Origin: Candidatus Effluviviaceae Genus V sp.
GTDB taxonomy: Bacteria; Joyebacterota; Joyebacteria; Joyebacterales; Joyebacteraceae
Assembly (NCBI GenBank): GCA_014728125.1
Contig: WJMD01000125.1
Span: forward strand, 1 to 33,063
DNA length: 33,063 nucleotides
Direction: 5' to 3'
Shown here: positions 1,877-26,612 of the stretch, one piece after another
Layout of the letters: each line of letters starts with the position of its first letter
How positions within the stretch are numbered: position 1 is the first letter of the stretch
Notes under the pieces: model-generated
Told to the model about the DNA's origin: nothing
The model's database searches: none
What the model saw: the letters and a program-made list of their open reading frames with translations, nothing else
Position numbers and translations under genes: made by a program

Positions 1877-1878
1877 TT

Positions 1879-2658: not shown

Positions 2659-2692
2659 CAACCAAGACGGTCGCGCTGTCCCCGCCGGGGGT

Positions 2693-2717: not shown

Positions 2718-2742
2718 GCGGACTGAGGGACCGGGAGGCGAC

Positions 2743-4266: not shown

Positions 4267-4289
4267 CCCGCTCCGTTCCGGGAGTGACC

Positions 4290-5447: not shown

Positions 5448-6682
5448 CGACACCTCTGAAGGTCCTCTCCATAAACCAGTTCTTCTATCCCGACAGCTAC
5501 GGCGGCGTCGAGCGCGTCGCGCACGAGACGCTTCGGAGGCTCGTGGAGCGCGGGCACAGTGTGCAGCTCGTGGGGCAGCGCCTCCGCTCCGAGCCGCCCG
5601 ATGTCGAGACCGTCGACGGGATCGTCGTCAATCGCTACGGCAGCATCGACAACAGCAGGAAGTTCGGGGGGAGAACGCTGGCCGCGCTCTTCGGAGCCCG
5701 GGGCGTGCTCAGGCGCCTCGCCCGGACGGGGGACTTCGACGTCGTCCTGGCGCATCACTACTTTCCCTACTACGCCTACGCGGGGGTGACGGGCGCTCCG
5801 AGGACGCCCGAGGTCATGACGTTCCACGCCTCGTACTGGCAGGAGCTCAGGCTCGAGGGTGCCGACCGGAACATCGGCAAGCCCCTGGAGTCGGTCCTCT
5901 TCGGAGGACTCTCGCGCAGGGCGGAAGCGTCCTGTCTGAAGCGTGCCGACAGCGTCATCGTCCTGAGCGACTTCTCCAGAGAACAGCTCGGGAGCTACTA
6001 CCCGTTCGCTCTCGGGAAGGTCGTCAAGATACCCGGCGGCGTCGACCTGGAGCGTTTCCGCCCGGCCGACGACCGCGCCCGGCTCCGCGAGAGACTCGGA
6101 CTGCCCGGCGACAGGCAGGTGCTCTTCACCGCGAGAAGACTCGTGCCCAGGATGGGGCTCGAGAACCTCGTCGACGCGTTCGGCGGCGTCCTCGATTCAC
6201 ACCCGGACACCCTCCTCGTGATCGCGGGCAAGGGGCGGCTCCGCGAGCCGCTCCTCGAGCGGGGACGCGAGCTGGGTCTGGCTGACCGGCTCAGGCTCGT
6301 CGGGTTCGTCGAGGACGACGAACTGGTGTCGTACTACCAGGCGGCCGACCTCTTCGTGCTGCCGTCGCTCGCCTTCGAGGGGTTCGGGATGGTGACGCTC
6401 GAGGCGCTCGCGTGCGGCACACCGGCGGTCGGCACGCCGATCGGCGCGACGCCCGAGCTTCTCAAGCCGCTCGCGGGCCAGCTGGTGCTCGGAGGCACGG
6501 ATGCCGTCGCCATCAGGCGGGGACTCTCCGCCGTGCTCGAGTGGCTCTCGGACGAGGAGGCCGCGCGGGCGCTCCGGCAGCAGTGCCGCCGCTACGTGGA
6601 GCGACGCTACGGGTGGGATGTCTCCGTCGACCGGCTCGAGGAACTCCTGCTGGAGCTGCACTCGAGAGGACCGCGGCGATGA
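5444..6682 (+). CDS. GT4 family glycosyltransferase
   Basis: Second GT-B/GT4 enzyme of the locus (412 aa). The start is the GTG overlapping the previous stop; the open frame runs far upstream, but that part is out-of-frame shadow of the preceding gene. The N-terminus is LKVLSINQFFYPDSYGGVER with the GT4 glycine loop. The donor domain shows LFTARRLVPRMGLENLVDA and an E-x7-E motif EGFGMVTLE (E312, E320). The R-x-x-x-R-M-G-L pattern in place of the usual GR-L-x-x-x-K-G is common in GT4 enzymes of the PimB/WcaL type. The stop overlaps the next start (ATGA). It probably builds the same polysaccharide repeat; its specificity is unknown. Confidence 0.88.
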   Translation: MTTPLKVLSINQFFYPDSYGGVERVAHETLRRLVERGHSVQLVGQRLRSEPPDVETVDGIVVNRYGSIDNSRKFGGRTLAALFGARGVLRRLARTGDFDVVLAHHYFPYYAYAGVTGAPRTPEVMTFHASYWQELRLEGADRNIGKPLESVLFGGLSRRAEASCLKRADSVIVLSDFSREQLGSYYPFALGKVVKIPGGVDLERFRPADDRARLRERLGLPGDRQVLFTARRLVPRMGLENLVDAFGGVLDSHPDTLLVIAGKGRLREPLLERGRELGLADRLRLVGFVEDDELVSYYQAADLFVLPSLAFEGFGMVTLEALACGTPAVGTPIGATPELLKPLAGQLVLGGTDAVAIRRGLSAVLEWLSDEEAARALRQQCRRYVERRYGWDVSVDRLEELLLELHSRGPRR

Positions 6683-8979: not shown

Positions 8980-8995
8980 GGGGAGACACCGAGAC

Positions 8996-10321
8996 ATGAA
9001 GGTCAGCGTTCTGGGACTGGGCTACGTCGGTTGCGTGTCGGCAGCGTGTCTTTCCGAGATGGGGCACACGGTCGTCGGGCTCGATGTGGATGAACACAAG
9101 ACGTCGCTCATTCGAGACGGCAAGAGCCCGATCGTCGAACCGGGGCTTCCGGAGCTCATCGCGAAGGGCGTCGCGTCGGGCGGACTGACGGCGACCACCG
9201 ACTACGAGGAGGCGGTCAACGGGACGGAGATATCGCTCGTCTGTGTCGGGACCCCCTCGGCCGAGTCGGGCAGCCCGAACCTCGAGTACACCGAGAGGGT
9301 CTGTCACCAGATCGGCGAGGTCATCAGAAGGGGAAGCGACTTCCACACCGTCGTTTTCCGGAGCACGATCCCTCCGGGCACGGTCGAGGACCGGCTGATG
9401 CCCCTCATCGAGGAGGCGTCCGGGTCGAAGGAGGGCGAACGCTTCGGCGTGTGCTTCAACCCCGAGTTCCTCCGGGAGGCCTCCGCCGTCAAGGACTTCT
9501 ACCATCCGCCGAAGATCGTCATAGGCGAGCGCACCCCGGGCAGCCGCGCGGGTGACGCCCTGGCGAAGCTCTACGAACCGATCGACGCTCCGATGGTCCG
9601 GACCGACGTCAGGGTGTCTGAGATGGTCAAGTACGCCGACAACTGCTTCCACGCCATCAAGGTCTGCTTCGCGAATGAGATCGGGAATCTGTCGAAGGCC
9701 GTCGGAGTCCCGGACAGTCACAAGGTCATGGAGATCTTCTGTCTGGACACGCAGCTCAACCTCTCGCCGTACTACCTGAAGCCCGGATTCGCCTTCGGCG
9801 GCTCGTGCCTTCCGAAGGACCTGCGGGCGGTCGTCCGGATGAGCAAGGAGACCGGCGTGGAGTGCCCCGTGCTCTCCGCGGCGACGCCCTCGAACGACCT
9901 TCAGATCGAGCGCGCCATCGAGATGATCAGAAACACGGGTAAGCGCCGAGTCGGAGTCCTCGGTATGAGCTTCAAGGCCGGAACCGACGATCTCAGAGAG
10001 AGCCCGATCGTCCAGGTCGTCGGCACGCTCATCGGCAAGGGCTACGAGCTGTCGATCTTCGACAAGAACATCTCGTGGGAGGCGCTCTTCGGCTCGAACC
10101 TCGGCTTCCTCGAGCACGAGCTGCCGTACGCGCAGCGGCTCAAGGCGGACACGATCGACGAGGTCATTGAACGCTCTGACGTGATCGTCGTGGCGAACGG
10201 TTCGGACGAGTTCAAGGACGTGCCGGGACGACTCGGCAGGGACAAGACGGTCGTCGACCTCGTTCGGATCATCGACGATCCATCGACGCTCGAGTGCAAA
10301 TACATGGGGATCGCCTGGTAG
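8996..10321 (+). CDS. algD: GDP-mannose 6-dehydrogenase (AlgD-like)
   Basis: NAD-dependent four-electron dehydrogenase of the UDP-Glc/GDP-Man dehydrogenase family (441 aa), predicted to make GDP-mannuronate from GDP-mannose. The Rossmann motif GLGYVG is at residues 7-12. Other landmarks are the catalytic Lys in SEMVKYADN (K212) and the catalytic Cys in FAFGGSCLPKD (C271). The sequence follows Pseudomonas AlgD more closely than UDP-glucose dehydrogenase: GKSPIVEPGL, TNPEFLRE-like FNPEFLREASA, LNLSPYYLKPGFAFGG, LGMSFKAGTDDLRESP, LIGKGYELSIFDKN and a short end YMGIAW resembling AlgD's GICW. The recollected AlgD match is from knowledge, not alignment. GAGGGGAG precedes the ATG. ManC in the same locus would supply GDP-mannose. 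Confidence 0.85.
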   Translation: MKVSVLGLGYVGCVSAACLSEMGHTVVGLDVDEHKTSLIRDGKSPIVEPGLPELIAKGVASGGLTATTDYEEAVNGTEISLVCVGTPSAESGSPNLEYTERVCHQIGEVIRRGSDFHTVVFRSTIPPGTVEDRLMPLIEEASGSKEGERFGVCFNPEFLREASAVKDFYHPPKIVIGERTPGSRAGDALAKLYEPIDAPMVRTDVRVSEMVKYADNCFHAIKVCFANEIGNLSKAVGVPDSHKVMEIFCLDTQLNLSPYYLKPGFAFGGSCLPKDLRAVVRMSKETGVECPVLSAATPSNDLQIERAIEMIRNTGKRRVGVLGMSFKAGTDDLRESPIVQVVGTLIGKGYELSIFDKNISWEALFGSNLGFLEHELPYAQRLKADTIDEVIERSDVIVVANGSDEFKDVPGRLGRDKTVVDLVRIIDDPSTLECKYMGIAW

Positions 10322-10357
10322 CACAGGGCGGCCCGAACGTACGGCAATGGAGGCGAC

Positions 10358-11623
10358 ATGCCTCGCGGGAAGCGCATCCTGATCATCGTCGAGAACCTGC
10401 CGGTTCCGTTCGACCGGCGCGTCTGGCTCGAGTCGACCACGCTCAAGGAGGCCGGCTACGAGGTCAGCGTCATCTGCCCGATGGGAAGCAAGTACCCGGA
10501 GGCGTATGAGGAGCTGGAGGGGATCCGCATCTACCGATATCCGCCTCCTCCGCCGACGACGACCAAGCTCTCGTACGCGTGGGAGTTCCCATACTGCTGG
10601 TTCCAGACCCTCAGGCTCGCCGGGCGTGTCGCCCGCGAGACCGGGTTCGACGCGATCCACGCGTGCAATCCACCGGACACCTTCTTCCTGATCGGTTTCA
10701 TCTACAAGCTGTTGCGAGGGGCCCGGTTCGTCTACGACCAGCACGACCTCTGTCCCGAACTCTACCTCTCGCGGTTCGGCGGTCGTCGGGCGTTCTTCTT
10801 CTCACTGCTCCGCTCTCTCGAGTGGGCAACGTACAGAACGGCCGACATGATCATATCGACCAACGAATCGTATCGGGAGCACGCTGTCGAGGTAGGAGGC
10901 TTCGACCGGGACATGACGTTCGTGGTCAGGAGCGGCCCGCTGCTGTCGCGCTTCCGGCCGGTCGAGCCCGAGCCGGAGCTCAAGCGGGGCAGAAAGCACC
11001 TCGTGTGCTACCTCGGGGTCATGGCGCCGCAGGACGGTGTTGACTATCTTCTCCGCGCGATCCGACATGTGGTCGATGTCGTCGGCAGGAAGAACATCCA
11101 CTTCGTGCTGATCGGCTCCGGCGACTCGTTCGACGACATCAAGGGCCTGCGGGACGACCTCGGGCTCACCGAGTACGTCGAGATGACCGGGCGGATATCG
11201 GACGCCGACGTCCAGCGCTATCTTTCGACCGCGGACCTGTGCGTCTGTCCCGACCCGAACAACCCGCTGAACGACGTATCGACGATGAACAAGGTGCTCG
11301 AGTACATGACCTTCGGACGCCCGATGGTCTCATTCGACCTGAAGGAGAGCCGGTACTCTGCTCAGGACGGAGCGCTCTACGCGACGCCGAACGACGAGAT
11401 CGAGTTCGGCGAGCGCATCATCCAGCTCCTCGACGACCGCGAGCTGGCGGGGAAGATGGGGGAGGCCAACCGGGAACGGATCGTGAACAAGCTCTCCTGG
11501 GAGCACACGGGTCGCGAGGTGGTCCGTGCGTACGACGCGCTCTTCGGTATCACGGACGTCGAGGTTCCCGTGCCGGGTGCGTCGCGGAGCGAGGGCGGCG
11601 AAGAGGCGGGGAGCGCCTCGTGA
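10358..11623 (+). CDS. GT4 family glycosyltransferase (WbuB-like)
   Basis: GT-B glycosyltransferase (421 aa) of the subgroup often annotated WbuB-like. It opens KRILIIVENLPVPFDRRVWL and continues with HACNPPDTF and YDQHDLCPELYLSRFG, all typical of that subgroup. The donor domain has CYLGVMAPQDGVDYLLRAI and NKVLEYMTFGRPMVSFDL with E315; the first Glu of the classic E-x7-E pair is not at the usual spacing, as is common in this subgroup. GGAGG lies 4 nt before the ATG. The gene ends in a Ser/Gly/Glu-rich tail and overlaps the radical SAM gene (GTGA), so the two are likely co-translated. Sugar specificity is not readable. Confidence 0.87.
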   Translation: MPRGKRILIIVENLPVPFDRRVWLESTTLKEAGYEVSVICPMGSKYPEAYEELEGIRIYRYPPPPPTTTKLSYAWEFPYCWFQTLRLAGRVARETGFDAIHACNPPDTFFLIGFIYKLLRGARFVYDQHDLCPELYLSRFGGRRAFFFSLLRSLEWATYRTADMIISTNESYREHAVEVGGFDRDMTFVVRSGPLLSRFRPVEPEPELKRGRKHLVCYLGVMAPQDGVDYLLRAIRHVVDVVGRKNIHFVLIGSGDSFDDIKGLRDDLGLTEYVEMTGRISDADVQRYLSTADLCVCPDPNNPLNDVSTMNKVLEYMTFGRPMVSFDLKESRYSAQDGALYATPNDEIEFGERIIQLLDDRELAGKMGEANRERIVNKLSWEHTGREVVRAYDALFGITDVEVPVPGASRSEGGEEAGSAS

Positions 11624-12603
11624 GCGGCCCCCTCGGGTGCGTTGCGGCCGTCACCTATCGCTGCAACTCCAGGTGTACGATGTGCGACATCTGGAGGACC
11701 GACGCGCGAGCGGGCGACGAACTCGAGCCCGAGGCGTACCGGTGGCTTCCGGATTCGCTGACCTCGATCAACGTCAGCGGGGGCGAGCCTTACCTTCGGG
11801 ACGACCTTCCTGAGGTCGTCTCGGTCATGCGCGATGCGTGTCCCCGGGCCCGCATCGTCGTGTCGACGAACGGGCTGACCCCGGAGCGGATCACCGGGAT
11901 GACGGCCCGCATGCCCGGGGTGGCCGTCAGGGTGTCGCTCGACGCGGCCGGACCGCTCCACGACGAGATCCGCGGGATCGAGGGCGCCTACGAGTCGGTG
12001 CTCGAGACCGTACGGCTGTTGAAGGACTCCGGCGTCGAGGACCTGGGACTGGCGGCGACGTCGACCGAGGCGCACGCGGACGAGCTTCTCGGCGTGAAGA
12101 GCCTGGCGGATGAACTCGGTATCAGGTTCATCGCGAGCGCCGCGCACAGCTCGCCGATCTTCTTCGGCGACCACGAGAGCGAGCGGCCGCACTCCGAAAA
12201 GTCCGCCCGCGCGTTCGGGCGTCTGATGCGTGAGGACCTGAACTCGCCCAGGCCGAGGGACTGGGCGCGGGCGTACTACTGGCGCGGAGTGGTCGACTAT
12301 GTGCGCGGACGTCCGCGCCGTCTCGGGTGCGGGGCCGGCACTTACTTTTTCTTCCTCGACCCGTGGGGTGACGTCTATCCGTGCAATGTCGGCGGTACGA
12401 GGATGGGGAACATCAGAGATGGGTCGTTCGCGGAGCTCAGACGCCGGACCCGGAACGAGGTGGGGGAGGCGGTCGCGAACTGCCCTCATCAGTGCTGGAT
12501 GGTCTGCACGGTGACGCCCCCGATGAGGCGGCGGCCGCTCGGACCGATCGCTTGGATCGCCGGCGCGAAGCTCTTCGGCATCGGTCGCGGGAGCGGGCGC
12601 TGA
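11620..12603 (+). CDS. Radical SAM/SPASM-domain protein in the EPS operon
   Basis: Radical SAM enzyme (327 aa). The CxxxCxxC motif is C15-x3-C19-x2-C22 in VTYRCNSRCTMCDIW, and the SAM-binding GGEP is in INVSGGEPYL. A C-terminal SPASM/twitch-like region has further cysteines in RLGCGAG, DVYPCNV and NCPHQCWMVCTV, enough for at least one auxiliary Fe-S cluster, with the typical DPWGDVYPCN and MGNIRDGSF spacing. The GTG start overlaps the upstream glycosyltransferase stop. SPASM proteins modify peptides, but also sugars and other small molecules; no precursor-peptide gene is visible nearby. A role in modifying a sugar or lipid intermediate of the polysaccharide is inferred from position only. Confidence 0.85.
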   Translation: MSGPLGCVAAVTYRCNSRCTMCDIWRTDARAGDELEPEAYRWLPDSLTSINVSGGEPYLRDDLPEVVSVMRDACPRARIVVSTNGLTPERITGMTARMPGVAVRVSLDAAGPLHDEIRGIEGAYESVLETVRLLKDSGVEDLGLAATSTEAHADELLGVKSLADELGIRFIASAAHSSPIFFGDHESERPHSEKSARAFGRLMREDLNSPRPRDWARAYYWRGVVDYVRGRPRRLGCGAGTYFFFLDPWGDVYPCNVGGTRMGNIRDGSFAELRRRTRNEVGEAVANCPHQCWMVCTVTPPMRRRPLGPIAWIAGAKLFGIGRGSGR

Positions 12604-12661
12604 CCTGCGGCCGGGGCGTGACGGAGACGAACCTCCTGAGGAACGTGAGGCCCTGACAGCC

Positions 12662-13876
12662 ATGAAGGTGCTTGCCGCCAACAAGTACTACTTCGTCAAG
12701 GGAGGCGCGGAGCGCTACTTCTTCGAGCTGTCGAGGATCCTCGCGGAGCACGGGCACGAGATCGTGCCGTTCGCGATGGACGACGAGCGGAACGAGGCGA
12801 CGCCGTGGAGCAGGTACTTCGTCTCACACGAGCCTTTCGAGAACGGGACCCCGGTCCTCGGCAGGCTTGCGGCCGCGGGGCGCGTGCTCTACTCCTGGGA
12901 GGCGAGACGGAAGATCGAGCGGCTCGTGGACCGGACGGAGCCGGATGTCGCGCACCTGCACAACATCGCGCACCAGCTTTCGCCGTCGATTCTCCACGGG
13001 CTGGCGTCACGCGGCGTCCCGATCGTTCAGACGCTGCACGACTACAAGCTCGTCTGTCCCAACTACCAGATGTTCGTCGACGGGGCCACGTGTGAGCGCT
13101 GCGAGACGTTCAGATACTACCGGGCCATCGCGCACCGGTGCATGCGGGGAAGCCTGCTGGCGAGCACCCTGGTGGCTCTGGAGGCATACGTCCACCGGAT
13201 CATGGGGACGTACCTCGAGAACGTCGACCTTTTCATCGCGCCGTCGCGGTCGCTGCGCGACCGTATGATCGCGCACGGCGTGCCGGGCGAGCAGATCGTC
13301 CACATGCCGTACTCGATAGCGCTCGACGAGTACGAGCCGCGTCATGAGCCGCAGAACTACGGAGTCTGTTTCGGCCGCCTGTCCGGCGGAAAGGGCCTGC
13401 GCACGCTGGTCGAGGCGCTCAGGAAGGTCCCGGAGCTTCCGTTCAGGATCGTCGGCAGCGGCCCGATGAGGGAGGAACTCGAGCGACTGGCCGCCGGTCT
13501 CGACCATGTCGAGTTCACCGGGTACATGACAGGAGAGCGGCTCCATCGTGTCGTTGCGGACGCCCTCTTCGCGGTCGTGCCCTCGGAGTGCTACGAGAAC
13601 TCGCCGCTCGCGGTCTACGAGTCGTTCGCCCTGGGCACGCCGGTCATCGGCTCGACGATCGGCGGCATTCCGGAGCTCGTGACGCACGGCGAGTGCGGGC
13701 TCCACTTTCCCACGGGCGACGCGGAGGCCCTGGCGGAGGCGATGCGCGACCTCTCGGCCGACAGGGGCCGTGCGGTCGAGATGGGGCGCGCAGCGCGCAG
13801 AAGGGTCGAGACGGAGTACGGACCGGCCCGTCACTACGAACTGATCACCTCGATCTACGAGAGGGTCACACAGTGA
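12662..13876 (+). CDS. GT4 family glycosyltransferase
   Basis: GT-B/GT4 enzyme (404 aa). The N-terminus KVLAANKYYFVKGGAERYFF has the GT4 glycine loop. The segment VQTLHDYKLVCPNYQMF and a pair of cysteines (CERC) around residue 145 are typical of a large GT4 subgroup in capsule loci. The donor domain has CFGRLSGGKGLRTLVEAL and the E-x7-E motif ENSPLAVYE (E312, E320), followed by GTPVIGSTIGGIPEL. A 58-nt spacer separates it from the radical SAM gene; GTGAGG lies about 10 nt before the ATG. The stop overlaps the next start (GTGA). Probably cytoplasmic, acting on the lipid-linked repeat. Confidence 0.88.
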   Translation: MKVLAANKYYFVKGGAERYFFELSRILAEHGHEIVPFAMDDERNEATPWSRYFVSHEPFENGTPVLGRLAAAGRVLYSWEARRKIERLVDRTEPDVAHLHNIAHQLSPSILHGLASRGVPIVQTLHDYKLVCPNYQMFVDGATCERCETFRYYRAIAHRCMRGSLLASTLVALEAYVHRIMGTYLENVDLFIAPSRSLRDRMIAHGVPGEQIVHMPYSIALDEYEPRHEPQNYGVCFGRLSGGKGLRTLVEALRKVPELPFRIVGSGPMREELERLAAGLDHVEFTGYMTGERLHRVVADALFAVVPSECYENSPLAVYESFALGTPVIGSTIGGIPELVTHGECGLHFPTGDAEALAEAMRDLSADRGRAVEMGRAARRRVETEYGPARHYELITSIYERVTQ

Positions 13877-14970
13877 AGATCGCAATGCTCGGACAGAAAG
13901 GCATCCCCGCGACCTTCGGCGGCATCGAGCGCCACGTCGAGGAGCTGGCCACACGACTCGTGGAGCGCGGGCACGAGGTGACTGTCTACTGCAGACCGTA
14001 CTACACGAAGATCCGCGGAGACTACCGCGGTGTCCGCCTCGTCGTCCTCCCGAGCATTCGAACGAAGCACCTCGACACGGCGACGCACTGCGCCGCGTGC
14101 ATGCCTCACATCCTCTCGGAGGACTACGACATCGTCCATCTCCACGCGCTCGGCCCGTCGCTCTTCGCCGGCATGTCGAAGTGGGCTGGAGCGAAGAGCG
14201 TCGTGACCGTGCACGGTCTCGACTGGCAGAGGGAGAAGTGGGGCGACTTCGCGACCTGGATACTCAAGCGGTGCGAGTACACGTCGGTCTGGTTCCCGAA
14301 CAGGACGATCGTCGTGTCGAAGGCCCTGCGTGAGTACTTCAATCAGTCGCGGGGCGTGACCGTGACCTACATCCCGAACGGCACCGTGCTGCCGCACGTC
14401 CGCGAGCCGGAGAAGATCAGGGAACTCGGGATTGAGCCGGGCAGGTACGTCCTCTTCGTCGGCCGCCTCGTCCCGGAGAAGGGATGTCACTATCTTCTGG
14501 ACGCGTGGAGGAACGTCGACTCGGATCTCGAACTCATCATCGCGGGCGGAACCAGCTTCTCGACCGACTACGTTGAGAAGCTCCACGAGATGGGCGACGA
14601 ACGGACGCGGTTCCTCGGATACGTCTACGGCGACGTTCTCGACGAGCTCTACTCCAACGCGCGTGTCTTCGTACTGCCGTCCGACATCGAGGGACTGCCG
14701 ATCGCACTGCTCGAGGCCATGAGCTTCGGGAACTGCTGTCTGACGAGCGACATTCCGGAGAACCTCGAGGTCATCGGCGACTGTGGGGCCACCTTCCGGA
14801 AGGGAGACGTCGCGGACCTCTCGAACAAGCTCCAGCGGCTTCTCGGGAACTCGGAGAGCTGCCACGCGATGGGCGACCGGGCGCGGCGCCACGTGCTCGA
14901 GACGTACGACTGGGACGGTGTCACGCTGCACACCGAGGCCATCTACTACACGATGCTCCGGGGCTTCTAG
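13873..14970 (+). CDS. GT4 family glycosyltransferase
   Basis: Fifth GT-B enzyme of the locus (365 aa). It starts at the GTG overlapping the previous stop. KIAMLGQKGIPATFGGIERHV resembles the DUF1972/rhamnosyltransferase-type GT4 opening. DIVHLHALGPSLFA and VTVHGLDWQREKWG follow, then the donor domain with LFVGRLVPEKGCHYLLDAW and the E-x7-E motif EGLPIALLE (E273, E281). Five GT4 enzymes suggest a repeat unit of several sugars. The donor is not identifiable by eye. Confidence 0.87.
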   Translation: MKIAMLGQKGIPATFGGIERHVEELATRLVERGHEVTVYCRPYYTKIRGDYRGVRLVVLPSIRTKHLDTATHCAACMPHILSEDYDIVHLHALGPSLFAGMSKWAGAKSVVTVHGLDWQREKWGDFATWILKRCEYTSVWFPNRTIVVSKALREYFNQSRGVTVTYIPNGTVLPHVREPEKIRELGIEPGRYVLFVGRLVPEKGCHYLLDAWRNVDSDLELIIAGGTSFSTDYVEKLHEMGDERTRFLGYVYGDVLDELYSNARVFVLPSDIEGLPIALLEAMSFGNCCLTSDIPENLEVIGDCGATFRKGDVADLSNKLQRLLGNSESCHAMGDRARRHVLETYDWDGVTLHTEAIYYTMLRGF

Positions 14971-14996
14971 ACCGGAGTTCCGAGGAGGACGACCTG

Positions 14997-15890
14997 GTGG
15001 ACATAGCCTGTCGTCTCGAAACCGAACGCGAGGCCGTCGAGGCCCTGCTCGACCGGTGGCTTCCTCCGGAGGGGGAGTATCCGGAGCGCATTCACGAGGC
15101 CATCAGATACTCGGCCCTCGGCGGCGGCAAACGTCTGAGACCGATCATCATGCTGGCGGCGGTGCGGGCCGTCGGCGGCGACCCCGATCTCGTCGTCCCG
15201 TCGGCTTGCGCGGTCGAGTACGTGCACTGCTGTTCGCTCGTTCTCGACGATCTCCCCTCGATGGACGATGCTGCGATGCGCAGAGGAAAGCCGACCACAC
15301 ACCGCGTCTTCGGGTCCGCGACCGCGATCCTCGCCGCCGACGCGCTGCTGATGCACTCGTTCAAGCTCCTTGCCGAGAACGGCGTCTCGGTCGACGCCGA
15401 CGGTCCGACGCTGGCGTCGGCCGTCAGGGAGCTGGCGACCGCCGTCGGTTCGTACGGCATGGTGGGCGGACAGCATGTCGACCTCGAGACCGCCGCCCAT
15501 GCCTCGATCGCTCCCGAGACCCTCGAGTACATCCAGAGCCGCAAGACGGGGGCGCTCTTCGTCGCATCGGCGCGGATCGGACCGCTGCTTCTGGGAGCCC
15601 CTCCCGAGATGCTCGCCGACCTCGAGACCTACGCCCGCAGCCTCGGGCTCGCTTACCAGATCGTCGACGACATACTCGACGCCGAGGGCGACGTCGAGAC
15701 TCTCGGGAAGGACGTGGGCCGGGACGCGGACACGAGGAAGAAGACCTTCGTGACCGTGCACGGCGTCGACGAGGCGCGTCGCGCGGCGCGTGAGCTCGCC
15801 GGGGCTGCCGAGCGCGCGATCGACGGGTGGTCCGGAACCGCTGATCCGCTGAGAGAGATCGCTGTCTACTGCGTCGAACGAACCGCCTGA
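14997..15890 (+). CDS. Short-chain polyprenyl diphosphate synthase (FPP/GGPP type)
   Basis: All-alpha trans-prenyltransferase (297 aa) that condenses isopentenyl diphosphate with allylic diphosphates. GGGKRLRP is at residues 42-49, the first aspartate-rich motif DDLPSMDD at 84-91, followed by RRGKPTTHRVFG, and the second motif DDILD near 224-228. The residue five before the first motif is Cys79, where bacterial farnesyl synthases commonly have Tyr; a small residue there favours a longer product such as GGPP, so I leave the product open. The start is a GTG preceded by GAGGAGG with 8-nt spacing. It sits between the last glycosyltransferase and manC. It could feed lipid-carrier synthesis, or may simply be a housekeeping gene placed here. 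Confidence 0.87.
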   Translation: MDIACRLETEREAVEALLDRWLPPEGEYPERIHEAIRYSALGGGKRLRPIIMLAAVRAVGGDPDLVVPSACAVEYVHCCSLVLDDLPSMDDAAMRRGKPTTHRVFGSATAILAADALLMHSFKLLAENGVSVDADGPTLASAVRELATAVGSYGMVGGQHVDLETAAHASIAPETLEYIQSRKTGALFVASARIGPLLLGAPPEMLADLETYARSLGLAYQIVDDILDAEGDVETLGKDVGRDADTRKKTFVTVHGVDEARRAARELAGAAERAIDGWSGTADPLREIAVYCVERTA

Positions 15891-15907
15891 GGGACCCCGG
15901 GGGACCG

Positions 15908-16969
15908 ATGCGTCACGCTGTGATACTGGCCGGAGGATGGGGAGAGCGGCTCTGGCCGCTCTCGACCAGGGAGCGTCCGAAGCAGCTGCTCCCGCTCGTC
16001 GGCGACCGGGCGCTCGTGCGACAGACGCTCGAGCGCGTGGCGCCGTTGACGTCGCTCGAGACGTCGCTCGTGCTGACCGGCGGGACGCTGCGTGCCCCTA
16101 TGGCCAGGGAGCTTCCGGAGATTCCCGGGGCGCGGATCATCGGAGAGCCGGTAGGGAGGAACACGGCTCCGGCTATCGCTCTCGCCGCCCTGCTTCTCGT
16201 CCGCGAGGATCCGGACGCCGTCCTGATCGTGCTGCCGGCCGATCACATCGTGAAGGACGAGCGCGCCTTTCAGAGGACGCTCGGACTGGCATGCGAGGCG
16301 GCGGAGGCCGAGCGCGCGCTGGTCACGCTCGGCATCGAGCCGACACGCCCGGAGACGGAGTACGGCTACATTCTGAAGGGCCCGGCCTCATCGCTCCCGG
16401 GCGTTCACGTGGTCGAGCGCTTCGTCGAGAAGCCCGACGTCGCCACGGCGAGGGCCTACCTCGACGAGGGCGGCTATCTCTGGAACAGCGGCATGTTCGT
16501 CTGGAGAGCCGACCGGTTTCTCGAGGAGACCGAGCGGCGGCTTCCCGACGTGGCCCGCGCGCTGTCGCGTGTCGAGTCGGAGCCGGGCGACCGGGACTTC
16601 GACGACGTGCTGGGCGCCTATTATGAAGACTGCCCGTCGGTCTCCGTCGACTACGGGGTCATGGAGAAGGCGTCCGAGGTGCTCGTGGTCCCCGCATCGT
16701 TCGGATGGGACGACGTCGGTGCGTGGTCGGCGATGCCGCGCATCTGGGAGGCCGACGAGGCGGGCAACGTCGTACGGGGCGATGCGGTCGTCCACGACGC
16801 GTCGAACTGCGTGGTCGACGCCGAGGACGGGATCGTGGGCGTCGTCGGCGTCAGCGATCTCGTCGTCGTCAGGACCGGGGATGCGACCCTCGTATGCCCG
16901 AAGGACCGGGCGAGGGACGTGCGTGAGATCGTGCGCGCGCTTCGTGAGAGGGGACCAGCGGGGGAGTGA
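15908..16969 (+). CDS. manC: Mannose-1-phosphate guanylyltransferase
   Basis: Nucleotidyltransferase (353 aa) that makes GDP-mannose from mannose-1-phosphate and GTP. The signature LAGGWGERLWPLSTRERPKQ spans residues 7-26. GRNTAPAIALAAL, VLPADHIVKDE, TEYGYI, FVEKP, LWNSGMFVWRAD and YGVMEKA are all present and typical of the ManC/AlgA/CpsB family. It is the single-domain form of about 350 aa, without the C-terminal cupin phosphomannose isomerase domain found in bifunctional enzymes. It starts 18 nt after the prenyl synthase stop. With the AlgD-like enzyme it defines a GDP-mannose to GDP-mannuronate route for the locus. Confidence 0.92.
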   Translation: MRHAVILAGGWGERLWPLSTRERPKQLLPLVGDRALVRQTLERVAPLTSLETSLVLTGGTLRAPMARELPEIPGARIIGEPVGRNTAPAIALAALLLVREDPDAVLIVLPADHIVKDERAFQRTLGLACEAAEAERALVTLGIEPTRPETEYGYILKGPASSLPGVHVVERFVEKPDVATARAYLDEGGYLWNSGMFVWRADRFLEETERRLPDVARALSRVESEPGDRDFDDVLGAYYEDCPSVSVDYGVMEKASEVLVVPASFGWDDVGAWSAMPRIWEADEAGNVVRGDAVVHDASNCVVDAEDGIVGVVGVSDLVVVRTGDATLVCPKDRARDVREIVRALRERGPAGE

Positions 16970-19750: not shown

Positions 19751-19825
19751 GCGGGAATAGCTCAGTGGTAGAGCGCCACCTTGCCAAGGTGGATGTCGCG
19801 GGTTCGAGCCCCGTTTCCCGCTCCA
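19751..19825 (+). tRNA. tRNA-Gly (anticodon GCC)
   Basis: Full cloverleaf: acceptor stem GCGGGAA/TTCCCGC, D-arm AGCTCAGTGGTAGAGC, anticodon stem CCACC/GGTGG with loop TTGCCAA (anticodon GCC at 19783-19785), T-arm GGTTCGAGCC, discriminator T and encoded CCA (19823-19825). Length 75 nt. First gene of a three-tRNA operon. Confidence 0.97.
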
Positions 19826-19834
19826 GATAGCAGC

Positions 19835-19869
19835 GAGGGCAGGGGGCGGATTCGTCGTCCCCTGTTCTC
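19835..19869 (+). other. Stem-loop between tRNA-Gly and tRNA-Cys
   Basis: The arms 19835-19847 (GAGGGCAGGGGGC) and 19857-19869 (GTCCCCTGTTCTC) can pair over 13 positions, three of them G-U, with a 9-nt loop. It fills most of the 50-nt spacer. It could guide tRNA processing or protect the spacer; without a T-tract and with tRNA genes following, termination is unlikely. Confidence 0.5.
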
Positions 19870-19875
19870 ACGACA

Positions 19876-19950
19876 GGCGGCGTAGCCAAGAGGCTAAGGC
19901 AGAGGATTGCAAATCCTTGATCACCGGTTCGAATCCGGTCGCCGCCTCCA
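19876..19950 (+). tRNA. tRNA-Cys (anticodon GCA)
   Basis: Acceptor stem GGCGGCG/CGCCGCC, D-arm AGCCAAGAGGCTAAGGC, anticodon loop TTGCAAA with anticodon GCA at 19909-19911, T-arm CCGGTTCGAATCCGG, discriminator T and encoded CCA (19948-19950). Length 75 nt. Second gene of the operon. Confidence 0.97.
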
Positions 19951-19965
19951 TCGTTTGCTCCAGTT

Positions 19966-20013
19966 CGCCGCCGGCGCCTCGGGATCTCCCGGTCCCATGA
20001 CGTGCCGGCGGTG
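19966..20013 (+). other. Stem-loop between tRNA-Cys and tRNA-Leu
   Basis: The arms 19966-19977 and 20002-20013 pair over 12 bp with two G-U pairs. The 24-nt loop contains a second small stem (CGGG 19980-19983 with CCCG 19988-19991). Like the preceding spacer, it is largely one hairpin. A role in tRNA maturation is inferred. Confidence 0.45.
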
Positions 20014-20028
20014 CTCGTATGGCCGCCT

Positions 20029-20118
20029 GCCGGGGTGGCGAAACTGGTAGACGCATCGGACTTAAAATCCGTCGAGGCGTCATGCCTCGTGCCGGTTCGA
20101 GCCCGGCCCCCGGCACCA
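20029..20118 (+). tRNA. tRNA-Leu (anticodon TAA)
   Basis: Class II tRNA with a long variable arm (GAGGCGTCATGCCTC region). The acceptor stem is GCCGGGG/CCCCGGC, the D-arm has GGTGGCGAAACTGGTAGACGC, and the loop CTTAAAA gives anticodon TAA at 20063-20065. The T-arm is CCGGTTCGAGCCCGG, discriminator A and encoded CCA (20116-20118). Length 90 nt. Last gene of the operon. Confidence 0.96.
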
Positions 20119-20145: not shown

Positions 20146-20340
20146 CTCGTACCCGCATGCCGCCCGCTCCCGGGCGACGCCCCGCGACATCGTCACCATC
20201 CTGTCCAAAGAGGTCCGCAAGCGGAAGAGCCCCTTCCTGTGGTGCCTTTCGTGTCGATTGTTACTTGCCAGATGGCATAAGACTTGCAGCTCCGGCAAGG
20301 TAGCGGATCACGGTACGGACCATCCGACGGAGGTGGCGGG

Positions 20341-22515
20341 ATGAGGGGCAGCACACGGACGCTTGTAGCGGGACGGACGGACATCCGTGCTCTGATCATG
20401 TGGACGGCGGCGGCTCTGGCGCTCGTGGCGCTCCTGTGGCCGGTCGACGCGCGAGGCGGCGGCTACCCGAGGCTCGCCAACATCTACTTCGGCTCGCTCG
20501 CTACGACTGACCTTGAGAAGCTCGCCCGGTGGGACGTCCTCGTGCTGGGGAAGCGCGCCGAGGACCTTCATCGTGAGGAGGTTGCGGAGCTTCGTCAGCT
20601 GAACCCCGACATCACGATCCTCGCGCACATGGCCGTGTCGTATCACGGAGGCTACGAGGAACCGCCGATCAACGGCGAACTGCTGGCGAAGATCGAGGCG
20701 GAGGACTGGTGGCTCAGAGACACGGCCGGAAGCGGAATCCGTCCCGGCTTCCCGGCTACCGTACTCAACCTGACGACCTGGTGCCAGCCGGACAGCGACG
20801 GGAAGATGCTGTGCGAGTGGCTCCCCGAGTACATCAACGAGAAGCTCGGCCCGGGGGGCATCTGGGACGGCGTCTACCTCGACTGCTGCTGGGAGCGTGT
20901 CGCATGGGTCAACGGGGCCATCGATGCGAACGGGAACGGACTCCCCGACGATGCGGACGAGCTGAACGAGAACTGGCGCGAGGGACTGGGCATCGCCGTG
21001 GCTCGCCTTCGCGAGCTGGTCGGTCGCGACTACGCGATCGTGACGAACGGGAACAACACCCTCTACGACCACTGCAACGGCGGGACGCGGGAGAACTTCC
21101 CTGAGATGCACGGCGGCTGGCTGGACAACGTCCTCCACGCCGAGCACGGGTACCGGGCGCTCGACGCCCGCTACAGGGACCCGGCGATCAACATCATCAA
21201 CTCGATCTGGGAGGGCGCGGCCACAGCGAGCGGTCCCGTGTCCTCGAGCCGGGCGGAGAAAGAGCTCAGGCTGGGACTGACCAGCACGCTGGTCTTCGGC
21301 GACGGCTATTTCTCGTTCGACGGTGGAGACGGTCTGCCGTGTCACAGCCAGCTGTGGTGGCACGAGCTCTACGACATCGAGCTCGGGGAGCCGCTCGGAC
21401 GCGCCGTCCCCGTCTCGGCCTATCCGGGCGACGCCGGCTGGCTCGATCTCGGTGACATGCTGCGGCTGAGGCGCTTCGAGAAGGGCGTGGCCGTCGTCAA
21501 CCCGAGCATGTCGTCGCAGACGATCGATCTCGGCGGCTTCTACTTCGACAGAGAGAGCTGGAACGGCGAGTTCTACCCGCAGAGCGGCGTCATGCAGCAC
21601 GTGACGGTCGACGCCGTGTCGGGCGAGATCCTCGTCGGACGGGGGCGACTCCTCGTCGGCGTCGCCGACGTCACGTACAGCGTTCCCGAGAGGGGAGGCA
21701 TCGCGCTCGACTGGGAGGAGGTTCCTGGAGCGACTGGCTACAGCGTGTACCGCGAGAACTACAGAGGACCGGGGTACTCCTCGAGGCAGCTTCTCGGTGT
21801 CGTCGCGACGACGTCCTACACAGACGGACGCGCGAAGGCCGACGGGAACTACCGCTACTACGTTGCCCCGATCGACGAGTTCCGCTGTGAGGGTCGGCTG
21901 TCCCGTCCGATCGAAGTGACGGCAGCTATGGGGAGCGACCTGTCTATCCTGCTCATGGTCGATGAGCCGGACGGGCTGCTGGCCCTCACGTGGACCGTGC
22001 CCGACGTGGCCGACGATCTGTCGATCGACCTCGTTCGCTTCGACGACAGGGGCGACGTGGAGATCATTGGAAACATCGAGCCGGACGAGCGCGGGCGGGC
22101 CCGCTACGTCGATGCTGACGTCGAGCCCGGCGCGTCCTACGAATACAGACTCGTCGCGAGCGACGGGAGCGCCGAGCTCGTGCTCGGCAGCGCCCGGGCG
22201 ACCGCGCCCGAGCAGCGCACGACGCGGACCGCGCTCCACGCCCCGAGCCCGAATCCCGTCAGGGGTTCGACCTCGATAGCTTTCGAGATCGCGGACGACG
22301 AGCGATGGGGCAGCACCCCGACGACGCTGACCATCTACGACGTGTCGGGCCGTGTCGTTAAACGCCTCGTCGACGGGGACATGCCCTCCGGCAGGCACCA
22401 GGTCTCGTGGGACAGCCGGAACGAGGACGGTCACAGGGTCGCCTCCGGCTGCTATCTGTATGCGCTGACGGCCGGCTCGGAACACCGAACGGGCCAGCTC
22501 GTCGTTCTCCGCTAG
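20341..22515 (+). CDS. Secreted GHL15-like putative glycoside hydrolase with FlgD-like C-terminal sorting domain
   Basis: Predicted exported protein (724 aa). The ATG at 20341 is preceded by GGAGG with 7-nt spacing. Residues about 20-38 (MWTAAALALVALLWPVDARG) form a signal peptide after an unusually long basic N-region. The next 400 residues look like the hypothetical glycosyl hydrolase family 15 (GHL15): YPRLANIYFGS, WDVLVLGKRAED, GIWDGVYLDCCWERVAW, DANGNGLPDDADELNENW (a Ca-binding-like Asp/Asn loop) and AIVTNGNNTLYD. A fibronectin-III-like segment follows (about residues 450-530), then a second one. The last 90 residues resemble FlgD-like/type IX sorting domains: PSPNPVRGSTSI, IYDVSGRVVKRL, GRHQVSWDSRNEDG, SGCYLYAL. 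It may act on surface or extracellular glycan; activity is unproven for this family. Confidence 0.78.
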   Translation: MRGSTRTLVAGRTDIRALIMWTAAALALVALLWPVDARGGGYPRLANIYFGSLATTDLEKLARWDVLVLGKRAEDLHREEVAELRQLNPDITILAHMAVSYHGGYEEPPINGELLAKIEAEDWWLRDTAGSGIRPGFPATVLNLTTWCQPDSDGKMLCEWLPEYINEKLGPGGIWDGVYLDCCWERVAWVNGAIDANGNGLPDDADELNENWREGLGIAVARLRELVGRDYAIVTNGNNTLYDHCNGGTRENFPEMHGGWLDNVLHAEHGYRALDARYRDPAINIINSIWEGAATASGPVSSSRAEKELRLGLTSTLVFGDGYFSFDGGDGLPCHSQLWWHELYDIELGEPLGRAVPVSAYPGDAGWLDLGDMLRLRRFEKGVAVVNPSMSSQTIDLGGFYFDRESWNGEFYPQSGVMQHVTVDAVSGEILVGRGRLLVGVADVTYSVPERGGIALDWEEVPGATGYSVYRENYRGPGYSSRQLLGVVATTSYTDGRAKADGNYRYYVAPIDEFRCEGRLSRPIEVTAAMGSDLSILLMVDEPDGLLALTWTVPDVADDLSIDLVRFDDRGDVEIIGNIEPDERGRARYVDADVEPGASYEYRLVASDGSAELVLGSARATAPEQRTTRTALHAPSPNPVRGSTSIAFEIADDERWGSTPTTLTIYDVSGRVVKRLVDGDMPSGRHQVSWDSRNEDGHRVASGCYLYALTAGSEHRTGQLVVLR

Positions 22516-22690: not shown

Positions 22691-23302
22691 ATGAACGGTG
22701 TCGATCTTGTCATCCTCGTCATCCTCCTCATTGGGATCGTGGGCGGGCTCGCCCGCGGGTTCGTCAGGGGCCTTCTCGGTCTGGTCGGCCTCGCGCTGGG
22801 CGTTCTGCTTGCGGCCGCGCACCACGGCTGGGTCGCGAACACGCTGCTCGGGTTCATTCCTGGAGAGAGGGCGTCGGCGGTCGTCGCTTTCATCCTCATC
22901 TTCATCGCCGTCGTCGTCGTGGTGGGGCTCATCGCCGTAGCCATCACGAAGGCCCTGAGGCTCGTTGCTCTCGGATGGCTCGACCGGCTCGCCGGGGGTG
23001 CCCTCGGACTGCTGATGTCGGCCATCGTGGCCGGTCTCCTTCTGCTCCTCGCCGTCATGGCCGGGTTCGACGAGAACGAGGCCATCGTCCAGTCGCGGCT
23101 CGCGCCGCGCGTGTTCCGCGTGACCGACGCCATCGTGTCGATGGTGCCGAGCGAGGCGCGCGAGACCTTCGAGGACGGGTACCTCAAACTCAGACTGCGA
23201 TGGGAGCGCGCGCAGAGCCGCAGGGAGCGGCTCGTGCACTCCGTTGAGCTCCGGTCCGGTGAGGACCCGGAGTCGCGGTCCCGTGGAGGAACATCCATAT
23301 GA
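22691..23302 (+). CDS. cvpA: CvpA family membrane protein
   Basis: Small inner-membrane protein (203 aa) of the CvpA (colicin V production) family, whose molecular role is poorly defined. GGAGGG lies 7 nt before the ATG, and the upstream open frame overlaps a promoter. Four hydrophobic helices are visible: about residues 5-40 (two closely spaced, with the family's GLARGFVRGLLGLVGLALG loop), 63-85 and 98-125. The C-terminal 60 residues are charged and cytoplasmic-looking (SRRERLVHSVELRSG). The stop overlaps the AAA+ start (ATGA), so the two proteins are probably made together. CvpA is often found beside mutS2 or Clp-type genes in other bacteria, but no function can be assigned here. Confidence 0.83.
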   Translation: MNGVDLVILVILLIGIVGGLARGFVRGLLGLVGLALGVLLAAAHHGWVANTLLGFIPGERASAVVAFILIFIAVVVVVGLIAVAITKALRLVALGWLDRLAGGALGLLMSAIVAGLLLLLAVMAGFDENEAIVQSRLAPRVFRVTDAIVSMVPSEARETFEDGYLKLRLRWERAQSRRERLVHSVELRSGEDPESRSRGGTSI

Positions 23303-25194
23303 TCGAACGTCCGGACGGCGACGAGCCGGGGCAGGGGAACGGACGGAACGAGAGACCACGGACATCGGCACCCGGAGACGATGAGAGCGCGGCCGAACAG
23401 CCGGGCGGCCAGAGCGTGCTCGAGACGCTCGGCATCGACCTGACCGAGCAGGCTCTCGCCGCGAGAGAGCTTTCGCTCGACGGAGGTCTCTGGGAGAACC
23501 AGATTCGGCGCCTCAAGGAGATCCTGGGGCGCCGTTTCGGTCACTCGGCGGTGCTCATCGGGCCCGAAGGCGTCGGGAAGCGCGCCCTCGTTGCCGAGGT
23601 AGCCCGCCATATCGCCGCAGGGCGCGTCCCTGGACGGCTGGCCGGCCGCAGGATCATCGAACTACCGTTCCACCGCGTGCTGGCCGCGCTCAGGACGGCC
23701 GGGGATTTCGAGAAGATCGTCTTCGCCGCGCTCAGAGAGGCAGCGGCGCGCGACGATGTCCTCCTGTTCATCGACGGCATCACACACTTCATGGGCGGCG
23801 TCGGACGCGGCGAGAATCTCACGAACGCGGCCTACGCGATCGAGATGGGCTGCCATCAGCCGGGACTCTATCTGATCGGGAGCGCGACGCCGGAGCGCCT
23901 CCGTGAAGCGTCCAGGACGATGCCCTGGTGCGCGACCCTTCTGACGCCCGTCATCGTTCCTGAGCCGAAGAGAGAGGCCGCCGTCGAGCTGCTCGCGATC
24001 CCGGCGTCGCGTCTGTCGGAGTACCACGGCGTCGGAATCGACCGGGAGGTCATCGAGGCGGCCGTCGATCTCTCGAACTACTACATCAGAGAGCTTGTCC
24101 TTCCGGGGAAGGCCGAGTCGCTGATCGACCGGGCGGCGTCCCGCGCCGAACTGAGGAAGGCCGAGGGGGCGGACCCCGTCGCCGTTACGCGCGGCGACGT
24201 CACCGAGGCGCTCTCCGAGTGGGTCGGGATCCCGGCGGGGAAGCTCGCCGGACCGGGCGAGGGTCGCGAGCTTCTCGGGCTCGAGGAGGCGCTCTCCCGC
24301 CGGATCAAGGGACAGGACCACTGTATCAGGAAGCTCGCCGACGTCATCCGCGTCGCCAAACTCGGGCTCGACGCCAGACCCGGTCGCCCGGACGGGGTCT
24401 TTCTCTTCGTCGGTCCGCCCGGCGTCGGTAAGAGCGAGCTCTCTCGGGTTCTTGCCGACGAACTCTACGGCGCCGACGCGGGCCTCTTCGAGTACAACAT
24501 GGCTCGGTACGGTGACGACGACGCGCTCCCGCGGCTCATCGGCCTGAGGGTCGCCGACGTGGACTACAAGGGAGACCTGACGACGGCCGTTGCCGCGCAC
24601 CCGCACTGCGTCGTGGTGCTGGAGAACATAGAGCGGTCGAGCAGCGACGTTGCCGTGATGCTGATGCAGCTCTTTCGCCACGGGACCGTGCGGGATGCGT
24701 CCGGGGCGGACGTCTCATTCAGTCACGCCACGATCATCATGACGACGAACTCCGAGAACATACGGCCGGCCGTGCCGGACGAGGGAAGCGCCGTGGGATT
24801 CGGCGCCGTCGATCGGGCCGACAGGGACCGGGATCTCGAGGACGTGCGCGAGGCCGTCGAACGCTTCTTCCCGCCGGAGTTCATGGACGGCGTCGACGAG
24901 GTACTGCTTTTCGACCATCTCACCGACTCGGTCCTGAGGGACATCGTCCAGCTTCATCTCGAGGACATATCGCAGCGGCTCGCGGGCCGTTCGATCGAGC
25001 TCTCGGTCAGCGAGTCCGCGGTCGCCCGGCTCGTGGAGAAGGGGCACAGCCGCGAATACGGGGCCCGCAACCTCGGGAGAACGGTCGAGGGTCTGGTGCT
25101 GAAACCGCTCGCACGCTTCCTGCTTGCCCATCCCGCGGTCGACGCCGTCTCGGTCAGAACGGTCGAGGGGGACATTGAAGTGGGGGCGTCGTGA
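23299..25194 (+). CDS. Clp-like double AAA+ protein with degenerate catalytic motifs
   Basis: Clp/Hsp100-like protein (631 aa) with two AAA+ modules, no N-terminal Clp domain and no middle domain; residues 1-45 are polar. Module 1 has GPEGVGKR (88-95) and LLFIDGITHF (155-164), so the Walker B Glu is Gly and the P-loop Thr is Arg. Its small domain, SNYYIRELVLPGKAESLIDRA, is clearly Clp-like. Module 2 has an intact P-loop GPPGVGKS (372-379), but Walker B is VVVLENIERS (438-447) in place of LLDEIEK. The pore loop GYVG is replaced by VADVDYKG, and the arginine-finger motif NRIDE reads DGVDE (Gly531). Sensor 1 (TTN484) and sensor 2 (GAR590) are kept. It probably binds nucleotide without working as a threading unfoldase. 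It overlaps both neighbours by 4 nt. Confidence 0.85.
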   Translation: MIERPDGDEPGQGNGRNERPRTSAPGDDESAAEQPGGQSVLETLGIDLTEQALAARELSLDGGLWENQIRRLKEILGRRFGHSAVLIGPEGVGKRALVAEVARHIAAGRVPGRLAGRRIIELPFHRVLAALRTAGDFEKIVFAALREAAARDDVLLFIDGITHFMGGVGRGENLTNAAYAIEMGCHQPGLYLIGSATPERLREASRTMPWCATLLTPVIVPEPKREAAVELLAIPASRLSEYHGVGIDREVIEAAVDLSNYYIRELVLPGKAESLIDRAASRAELRKAEGADPVAVTRGDVTEALSEWVGIPAGKLAGPGEGRELLGLEEALSRRIKGQDHCIRKLADVIRVAKLGLDARPGRPDGVFLFVGPPGVGKSELSRVLADELYGADAGLFEYNMARYGDDDALPRLIGLRVADVDYKGDLTTAVAAHPHCVVVLENIERSSSDVAVMLMQLFRHGTVRDASGADVSFSHATIIMTTNSENIRPAVPDEGSAVGFGAVDRADRDRDLEDVREAVERFFPPEFMDGVDEVLLFDHLTDSVLRDIVQLHLEDISQRLAGRSIELSVSESAVARLVEKGHSREYGARNLGRTVEGLVLKPLARFLLAHPAVDAVSVRTVEGDIEVGAS

Positions 25195-26612
25195 GGTCGA
25201 TCATTGCAGGCCGCGACCAGGGGTCCGGTCCGGTTCTCAGGGTGCTCAACCCCCGCGACGGGTCGGTCGTCGAGGAGGTCGCGACCGTGACGCGGTCCGA
25301 GGCGCTCTCTGCGCTCGAGGCCGCGGAGTGCGGGGCGGCCGCGATGGGGAGCACGAGCAGATACGAACGCGCCGCCGTACTGCGCCGCGCCGCTCGGCTC
25401 CTCGAGGAGCGGGCCGGCGCCTTCGCCGAGACGCTCGCCCTCGAGGTCGGTAAGACGCTCGGGGAGGCCGAGGGCGAGGTGGCGAGGGCCGTGGAGACCT
25501 TCACAGTGTCCTCCGAGGAGGCGCGGAGACTCGCCGGTGAGATCGTCCCGTTCGACGGCGCGCCGACGGGCGCAGGTCGCTTCGGTTTCGCCGTTCGCGT
25601 ACCGCTCGGCATCGTCGTCGCCATCACCCCGTTCAACTTCCCCCTCAACCTGGCGGCGCACAAGGTAGCCCCGGCGCTGGCGGCGGGGAACGCGGTCGTT
25701 CTGAAGCCGGCCTCGGCGACGCCGCTCGCCGGTCTCAAAATGGCCCGACTGCTGTACGATGCCGGACTTCCTCCCGAGGCGCTCTCGGTCGTCGTCGGAG
25801 AGGGGAGCGCCGTCGGGGGAGCACTGGTCGAGGACCCGCGCCCGCGCATGGTGACCTTCACGGGCAGCGTAGACGTCGGCCGGGCCATTCAGCGCCGGGC
25901 CGGTCTCAAGAAGACGGCGATGGAGCTCGGTTCGAACTCCGCCGTCGTGGTTACGGAGTCTGCGTCGATCGCGTCGTGCGTCGACCGGATCGTGCTCGGC
26001 GCATTCGCCCTGGCCGGTCAGGTGTGCATCTCGGTCCAGCGCGTGCTCGTCCACGAGTCGCTCTTCGACGAGTTCGTGTCGGAAGCCGCGTCGCGCGCAG
26101 CGGCTCTCGTCGTCGGAGACCAGCTCGACGAGGGGACCGACGTCGGTCCCATGATCACGCCGGGGGAGGCTGAGCGTGCCGAGGGCTGGATCGAGGAGGC
26201 GCGGAGCGCGGGCGCCCGCGTTGTCACGGGCGGTGAGCGGGACAACGCGTTCGTGACGCCGGCCGTCATCGCCGGGCCGCCGGAGGAGGTCCGGCTGTGG
26301 CGCGAGGAGGCGTTCGCGCCGGTACTCTGCGTCCGCAGTTTCCGGACCTTCGACGAGGCGATCGACTCCGTCAACCGGTCCCGCTTCGGGCTGCAGGCGG
26401 GGGTCTACACGGAGCGATGGGACGAGGCTCTCGAGGCGTCCCGGAGGATCCGTGCGGGCGGCGTCATGATCAACGACGTACCGACCTTCCGGGTGGACCT
26501 CATGCCGTACGGCGGGGAGAAGGACAGCGGTCTGGGCCGGGAGGGGCCGCGGTACGCCGTGCGGGAGATGAGCGAGCTCAGGACGGTCGCCTTCCGCGGC
26601 GGGGACCGCTAG
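25191..26612 (+). CDS. Aldehyde dehydrogenase family protein
   Basis: NAD(P)-dependent aldehyde dehydrogenase (473 aa). Landmarks are the oxyanion-hole Asn in ITPFNFPLNL (N149), the cofactor Lys in VLKPASATPLA (K172), FTGSVDVGR, the general base in MELGSNSA (E245), the nucleophile in AGQVCISVQRV (C279) and REEAFAPVL near the C-terminus. The MPYGGEKDSGLGREG ending is typical of the GabD/lactaldehyde/GAPN-like branch. The substrate cannot be named from sequence. The GTG start overlaps the Clp-like gene stop (GTGA). It shares an operon with cvpA and the AAA+ gene, which gives no obvious pathway. Confidence 0.92.
   Translation: MRSIIAGRDQGSGPVLRVLNPRDGSVVEEVATVTRSEALSALEAAECGAAAMGSTSRYERAAVLRRAARLLEERAGAFAETLALEVGKTLGEAEGEVARAVETFTVSSEEARRLAGEIVPFDGAPTGAGRFGFAVRVPLGIVVAITPFNFPLNLAAHKVAPALAAGNAVVLKPASATPLAGLKMARLLYDAGLPPEALSVVVGEGSAVGGALVEDPRPRMVTFTGSVDVGRAIQRRAGLKKTAMELGSNSAVVVTESASIASCVDRIVLGAFALAGQVCISVQRVLVHESLFDEFVSEAASRAAALVVGDQLDEGTDVGPMITPGEAERAEGWIEEARSAGARVVTGGERDNAFVTPAVIAGPPEEVRLWREEAFAPVLCVRSFRTFDEAIDSVNRSRFGLQAGVYTERWDEALEASRRIRAGGVMINDVPTFRVDLMPYGGEKDSGLGREGPRYAVREMSELRTVAFRGGDR

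Follow-up and report, generated by a model that had tools for sequence, protein, structure and literature searches.

An Hsp100-type protein that has lost most of its motor residues retains an invariant VGF tripeptide in two bacterial phyla and may dock on ClpP

What can a Clp-type protein do once the residues that drive unfolding are gone? The question is raised by a locus of Candidatus Effluviviaceae Genus V sp., which we analyzed in a window of 33,063 nucleotides (the whole stretch of DNA under study). An earlier note, made from the sequence alone, had described here a Clp-like double AAA+ protein deprived of both Walker B motifs, the pore loops, and an arginine finger, and had proposed a nucleotide-binding scaffold or regulator, perhaps tied to the membrane protein encoded next to it. 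The gene and its two neighbors are as follows:

22691-23302, plus strand: CvpA (Colicin_V production, PF02674), the upstream membrane protein, coupled to the next gene via ATGA
23299-25194, plus strand: pseudo-Clp (pClp), a 631-aa double AAA+ Hsp100-type protein without N-domain and without M-domain
25191-26612, plus strand: aldehyde dehydrogenase (ALDH), downstream of pClp and coupled via GTGA, the same neighbor throughout the phylum

The pClp reading frame is genuine. A GGAGG Shine-Dalgarno sequence lies immediately 5' of it, its start overlaps the CvpA stop in the sequence ATGA, and its end overlaps the ALDH start in the sequence GTGA. CvpA begins at a conserved Met at position 22691 and, in the window, is translationally coupled to pClp.

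pClp is built, like class I Clp/Hsp100 proteins, from two AAA+ modules that carry Clp-type lids, and matches the Pfam families AAA_2, ClpB_D2-small, and AAA_lid_9; neither a Clp N-domain nor an M-domain is present. The NCBIfam ClpA profile aligns collinearly over residues 28-609, scoring 320.6 bits against an equivalog cut-off of 993. ClpA therefore resembles pClp in its collinear full-length match and in the absence of an M-domain, but differs in this score and in the motor residues, which pClp has lost. With its two AAA+ modules, pClp is not a ClpX either, as ClpX has one such module and an N-domain with a zinc finger. AlphaFold2 predicts residues 1-37 to be disordered, and its model of pClp (pTM 0.49) has low confidence in the domain arrangement, making the overall orientation unreliable; the best PDB matches that Foldseek found with this pTM 0.49 model are ClpC chains from ClpC-ClpP complexes. 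Membership in a defense system was rejected, as PADLOC returned weak generic AAA+ matches only.

We then compared the motor motifs with those of the intact ClpC (G000:C134) and ClpB (C14) that the window genome also encodes, and counted them in 25 aligned orthologues, each total below comprising those that cover the site (D1 and D2 are the two AAA+ modules):

23560-23583, plus strand: D1 Walker A, GPEGVGKR, with Arg in place of Thr; 23/23 orthologues covering the site have R or Q
23692-23703, plus strand: D1 pore-loop position, RTAG as against KYRG; aromatic in none of the aligned orthologues
23761-23778, plus strand: D1 Walker B, LLFIDG, without the catalytic Glu; Glu in 0/25
24412-24435, plus strand: D2 Walker A, GPPGVGKS, retained; no variation in GVGK across the clade
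24553-24573, plus strand: D2 pore-loop region, ADVDYKG, 2 residues shorter than GYVGYEEGG
24616-24633, plus strand: D2 Walker B, VLENIE; in place of Glu, N, H, Q, or A in the window's phylum and G in the second phylum
24748-24750, plus strand: D2 sensor-1 Asn, kept in 21/24
24889-24891, plus strand: D2 Arg-finger position, Gly; G in the window's phylum, S or A in the second
25060-25068, plus strand: D2 sensor 2, GAR; R in 17/18 orthologues of the window's phylum and 1/6 of the second

Alignment to the genome's own ClpC and ClpB bore out the motif readings of the earlier note: FIDG at the D1 Walker B and GKR at the D1 P-loop, LENIE in place of LDEIE at the D2 Walker B, VADVDYKG in place of GYVG (a two-residue deletion relative to GYVGYEEGG), DGVDE in place of NRIDE at the D2 Arg finger, and a D2 P-loop with sensors 1 and 2 that are all kept in the window protein. 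Its statement that both Walker B motifs are lost holds for the glutamate, which is gone from both, but not for the D1 aspartate, which is still there. Conversely, it had understated the damage to the Arg fingers and to D1; the D1 pore motif, D1 sensor 1, and the D1 Arg fingers, where ERRF has become ATLL, are gone too. Across the alignment, neither GYVG nor KYRG occurs in any orthologue, ERRF is not retained in the clade, the D2 Walker-B Glu is found in 0/24 orthologues, and the D2 Arg finger is missing from 24/24. The D2 Walker-B Asp position holds Glu or Asp in the window's phylum, where the D2 Walker A is retained; the Walker-A Thr has become Asn in 4/6 orthologues of the second phylum. MAFFT and phmmer agreed, ruling out a misalignment that hides a displaced catalytic Glu or pore residue. 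Class I Clp/Hsp100 proteins have Walker A in both modules, both Walker-B glutamates, aromatic pore loops, and Arg fingers, and pClp falls short on each of these points. Our alignments show that both AAA+ modules of pClp lack the residues predicted to serve hydrolysis and threading.

To what extent is this a property of one strain? The window's phylum was represented by 20 genomes (G000-G019, 8 genera; those with identified records are metagenome-assembled genomes), and a second phylum by 7. Orthologues of pClp occur in 20/20 genomes of the former, one being split across two contigs (G008) and one a fragment in a 57%-complete draft assembly (G011), and in 6/7 of the latter, at 35-39% identity and equal length. 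At the thresholds used, no further pClp group was found outside these two phyla among about 386 sampled genomes. In a maximum-likelihood tree, the proteins of both phyla form one clade apart from the canonical Clps (support 100/100), each phylum's subgroup is itself supported at 100/100, and the branch that separates pClp from the canonical Clps measures about 0.7 changes per column. Among the top-scoring canonical relatives is a fusion of a TPR region to a Clp protein (L088 in G072; at least 1085 aa), whose motor is intact and which carries an LGF loop.

No member of the pClp clade has an intact motor, and pairwise dN/dS values of 0.10-0.29 indicate purifying selection. As the motor losses are common to orthologues in two phyla, they are neither accidental nor strain-specific; strain-specific decay is ruled out by this conservation together with the dN/dS values. 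The wider notion of a functionless gene in decay can appeal to the many catalytic motifs that are gone, but the gene is kept in 20/20 genomes of one phylum (once as a fragment) and in 6/7 of the other, has no internal stops, and combines low dN/dS with invariant motifs, and we consider this explanation next to untenable. The substitutions first noticed in the window protein are thus conserved in two phyla, in the alignment of 25 orthologues, and the observation that would have pointed to a decayed gene, close homologues with an intact Walker B, was not made among the orthologues of either phylum. That the changes are fixed clade-wide, in a gene under purifying selection, supports the proposal that hydrolysis and threading would be abolished in pClp and that it may act as a scaffold or regulator.

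The earlier reading overlooked one element that survives:

24793-24801, plus strand: VGF tripeptide, amino acids 499-501 (V499-G500-F501), in the alignment opposite the PhiGF loop by which ClpC docks on ClpP

VGF is invariant in 24/24 pClp members covering the site. It aligns with IGF in the ClpC of the window genome, whose ClpB is without the loop, and phmmer independently aligned it with the VGF of Bacillus subtilis ClpC. The flanking residues are among the most variable positions of pClp, forming a hypervariable loop, and when about 600 tripeptide windows are ordered by how sharply the core contrasts with its flanks, VGF comes out well ahead at 2.33 bits, the next independent window reaching 1.31. 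Fully invariant tripeptides occur only in VGF, in the D2 P-loop GVGK, and in VLPGKA of the D1 lid. Residues 490-507 have an AlphaFold2 pLDDT below 50, which is in keeping with a flexible or disordered loop, as docking loops are. pClp has the [LIV]-G-[FL] loop after D2 sensor 1 that is characteristic of ClpP partners. The motif (L/I/V)-G-(F/L), described as ClpP-binding, is found in 84% of ClpC sequences and in 89% of those of ClpX (PMC10128030), and mutation of the AGF motif of Staphylococcus aureus ClpC abolished ClpP binding (PMC12521514). Retention of VGF could, alternatively, have a structural reason or reflect another partner instead of ClpP.

ClpC, whether from the window genome, B. subtilis, or S. 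aureus, shares with pClp the two AAA+ modules, the D2 small domain, and a PhiGF docking loop at the equal position; unlike ClpC, pClp has no N- or M-domain, neither Walker-B Glu, no pore loops, no Arg fingers, and no D1 Walker-A Thr. ClpB/Hsp104 is similar in its D2 fold, as the ClpB_D2-small match indicates, but has an M-domain and an intact motor and no ClpP loop. The corresponding motif of ClpA is IGL as against VGF.

ClpP is encoded in the same genomes as pClp, full or nearly full in 17/20 genomes of the window's phylum and full in 6/7 of the second, with no synteny between clpP and the pClp gene. The window genome assembly lacks clpP, likely through an assembly gap, because its contig C113 (G000:C113:1-462) begins within lon, which adjoins clpP in the relatives; a true biological loss was rejected on the same ground, the break falling inside lon. 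The clpP loci inspected in the window's phylum read tig-clpP-lon, with no clpX in between, and ClpX above the family cut-off was found in 0/20 of these genomes, where matches were weak and below that cut-off. Two loci of the second phylum, read directly, have the order tig-clpP-clpX, so pClp is not simply a substitute for ClpX.

Together, the invariance of VGF and GVGK in two phyla, purifying selection, and the co-occurrence with ClpP support a docking role. On balance, we favor the explanation that pClp is a Clp/Hsp100 pseudo-unfoldase that would dock on ClpP and regulate it without ATP hydrolysis, the binding itself being deduced from the motif. If so, pClp probably controls ClpP without motor work. 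pClp would assemble into rings, and its VGF loops would insert into the hydrophobic pockets that ClpP has on its apical surface. Such hexamers are putative, and the missing Arg fingers may weaken their formation. The D2 ring would be locked with ATP in the window's phylum and in a passive state in the second. By analogy, the D2 module of the window's phylum, which keeps Walker A and sensors 1 and 2 while its Walker-B Glu is mostly H, Q, or N, would resemble an engineered Walker-B Glu-to-Gln trap; tight binding of ClpX to ClpP requires MgATP, and a Walker-B E185Q ClpX served to prolong the ClpX-ClpP complex (PMC7112952). As 4/6 proteins of the second phylum have Asn for the Walker-A Thr and sensor 2 is mostly lost there, an ATP-locked state is not general. 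The effect on ClpP could have either sign, pClp acting as a cap or a competitor of active ClpC, or else opening the gate or serving as a tether, independently of ATP; engagement of IGF allosterically rigidifies the ClpP gates (PMC7112952). That one such hydrolysis-independent regulator (cap, gate opener, or tether), derived from an AAA+ unfoldase, is common to both phyla is a more tentative proposal, to which we give somewhat less than an even chance.

Other explanations must be weighed against these observations. One would make pClp a poison or adaptor subunit that enters mixed hexamers with active ClpC and tunes or stalls its motor; the missing Arg finger and pore loops would act on the motor, and VGF would complete the ClpP-facing surface. 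The ClpC-like fold, the retained VGF loop, and the intact, IGF-bearing ClpC of the window genome fit this, but pClp has no M-domain, is strongly diverged (the branch of about 0.7 noted above), and is not gene-linked to clpC, and we regard such a role as unlikely. Still less probable, in our opinion, is an unorthodox active ATPase in which D2 hydrolyzes ATP slowly, relying on a different acidic residue or on an Arg finger contributed in trans. The D2 module of the window's phylum does keep Walker A, sensors 1 and 2, and an acidic residue (Glu or Asp) where Walker B has its Asp, and the LAP1-Torsin pair offers a precedent (PMC4358337). Against it, the catalytic Glu position is H, N, Q, A, or G clade-wide, the second phylum is also without sensor 2 and often without the Walker-A Thr, and the lost pore loops make the usual threading route impossible. 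Torsin and LAP1 share with pClp an AAA+ protein with missing catalytic parts and a membrane partner, but they form an active ATPase pair, are eukaryotic, and have no ClpP loop.

The gene order raises a further alternative, that pClp is a nucleotide-binding platform working at the membrane with CvpA, and perhaps with the downstream ALDH, unconnected to ClpP. In the window's phylum, the order galT-glgA-GHL15-CvpA-pClp-ALDH-IF3-L20-pheS-pheT holds in every locus as far as the contigs extend, CvpA adjoins pClp in all loci covering the site, and the start and stop codons overlap in the window. The tie to CvpA suggested at the outset stands to this extent, but the pClp genes of the second phylum adjoin unrelated ones (TPR, vWA/YfbK, or sigma-54-activator genes), and neither CvpA nor ALDH lies beside them. 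CvpA is therefore not a general partner and is at most a lineage-specific one. In addition, the charge pattern of CvpA suggests that both its termini lie outside and that its cytosolic loops are short, its structure model is poor (pLDDT 57), and the invariant VGF would be left unexplained; we find a membrane platform of this kind rather improbable. The invariant VGF suggests ClpP instead as the partner of wider occurrence. Under the docking explanation, the conserved CvpA operon may bring a pClp-ClpP complex near the membrane in the window's phylum.

Pseudoenzymes of the Clp protease are known on the ClpP side, as ClpR. ClpR are catalytically dead ClpP subunits, and PA28 and PA200 are proteasome activators that are not AAA+ proteins; as non-enzymatic regulators of a self-compartmentalized protease, they would be functional analogues of pClp, ClpR differing in that it belongs to the peptidase side. 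The atypical plant Clp proteins SMXL/D53 are, like pClp, Hsp100-derived regulators, but SMXLs are without an IGF/L motif and carry an EAR motif (PMC9133912), a definition that pClp fails by having an IGF-type motif. In the open-access literature, we found nothing relevant on pseudo-unfoldases, on CvpA with ClpC, or on Eisenbacteria with Clp, and no description of a motor-side pseudo-unfoldase that retains its hook for ClpP. Should pClp dock on ClpP, it would represent control of the protease by a dead motor, in principle a bacterial counterpart of the non-ATPase proteasome activators. In that case, it may also be the first recognized pseudo-unfoldase to retain little beyond the nucleotide-pocket and ClpP-docking elements. 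It would serve, in a phylum without ClpX, as a natural test of what docking on ClpP requires apart from ATP hydrolysis.

Several further features were seen around these genes. In the second phylum, pClp genes (L066-L068) are divergent to genes for TPR proteins encountered in two or more genera. In the window, a GHL15-type putative glycoside hydrolase with an FlgD-like C-terminal domain lies directly 5' of CvpA (20284-22515), and this gene is present as tandem duplicates in several relatives (L052, L053, L054, and L058). Between glgA and the GHL15 gene is a cluster of tRNA-Gly, tRNA-Cys, and tRNA-Leu (19751-20118). Finally, positions 989-16966 hold an exopolysaccharide-type cluster comprising an AAA_22 ATPase, a Wzy-type ligase, several glycosyltransferases, a UDP-glucose/GDP-mannose dehydrogenase, a polyprenyl synthetase, and a nucleotidyl transferase.
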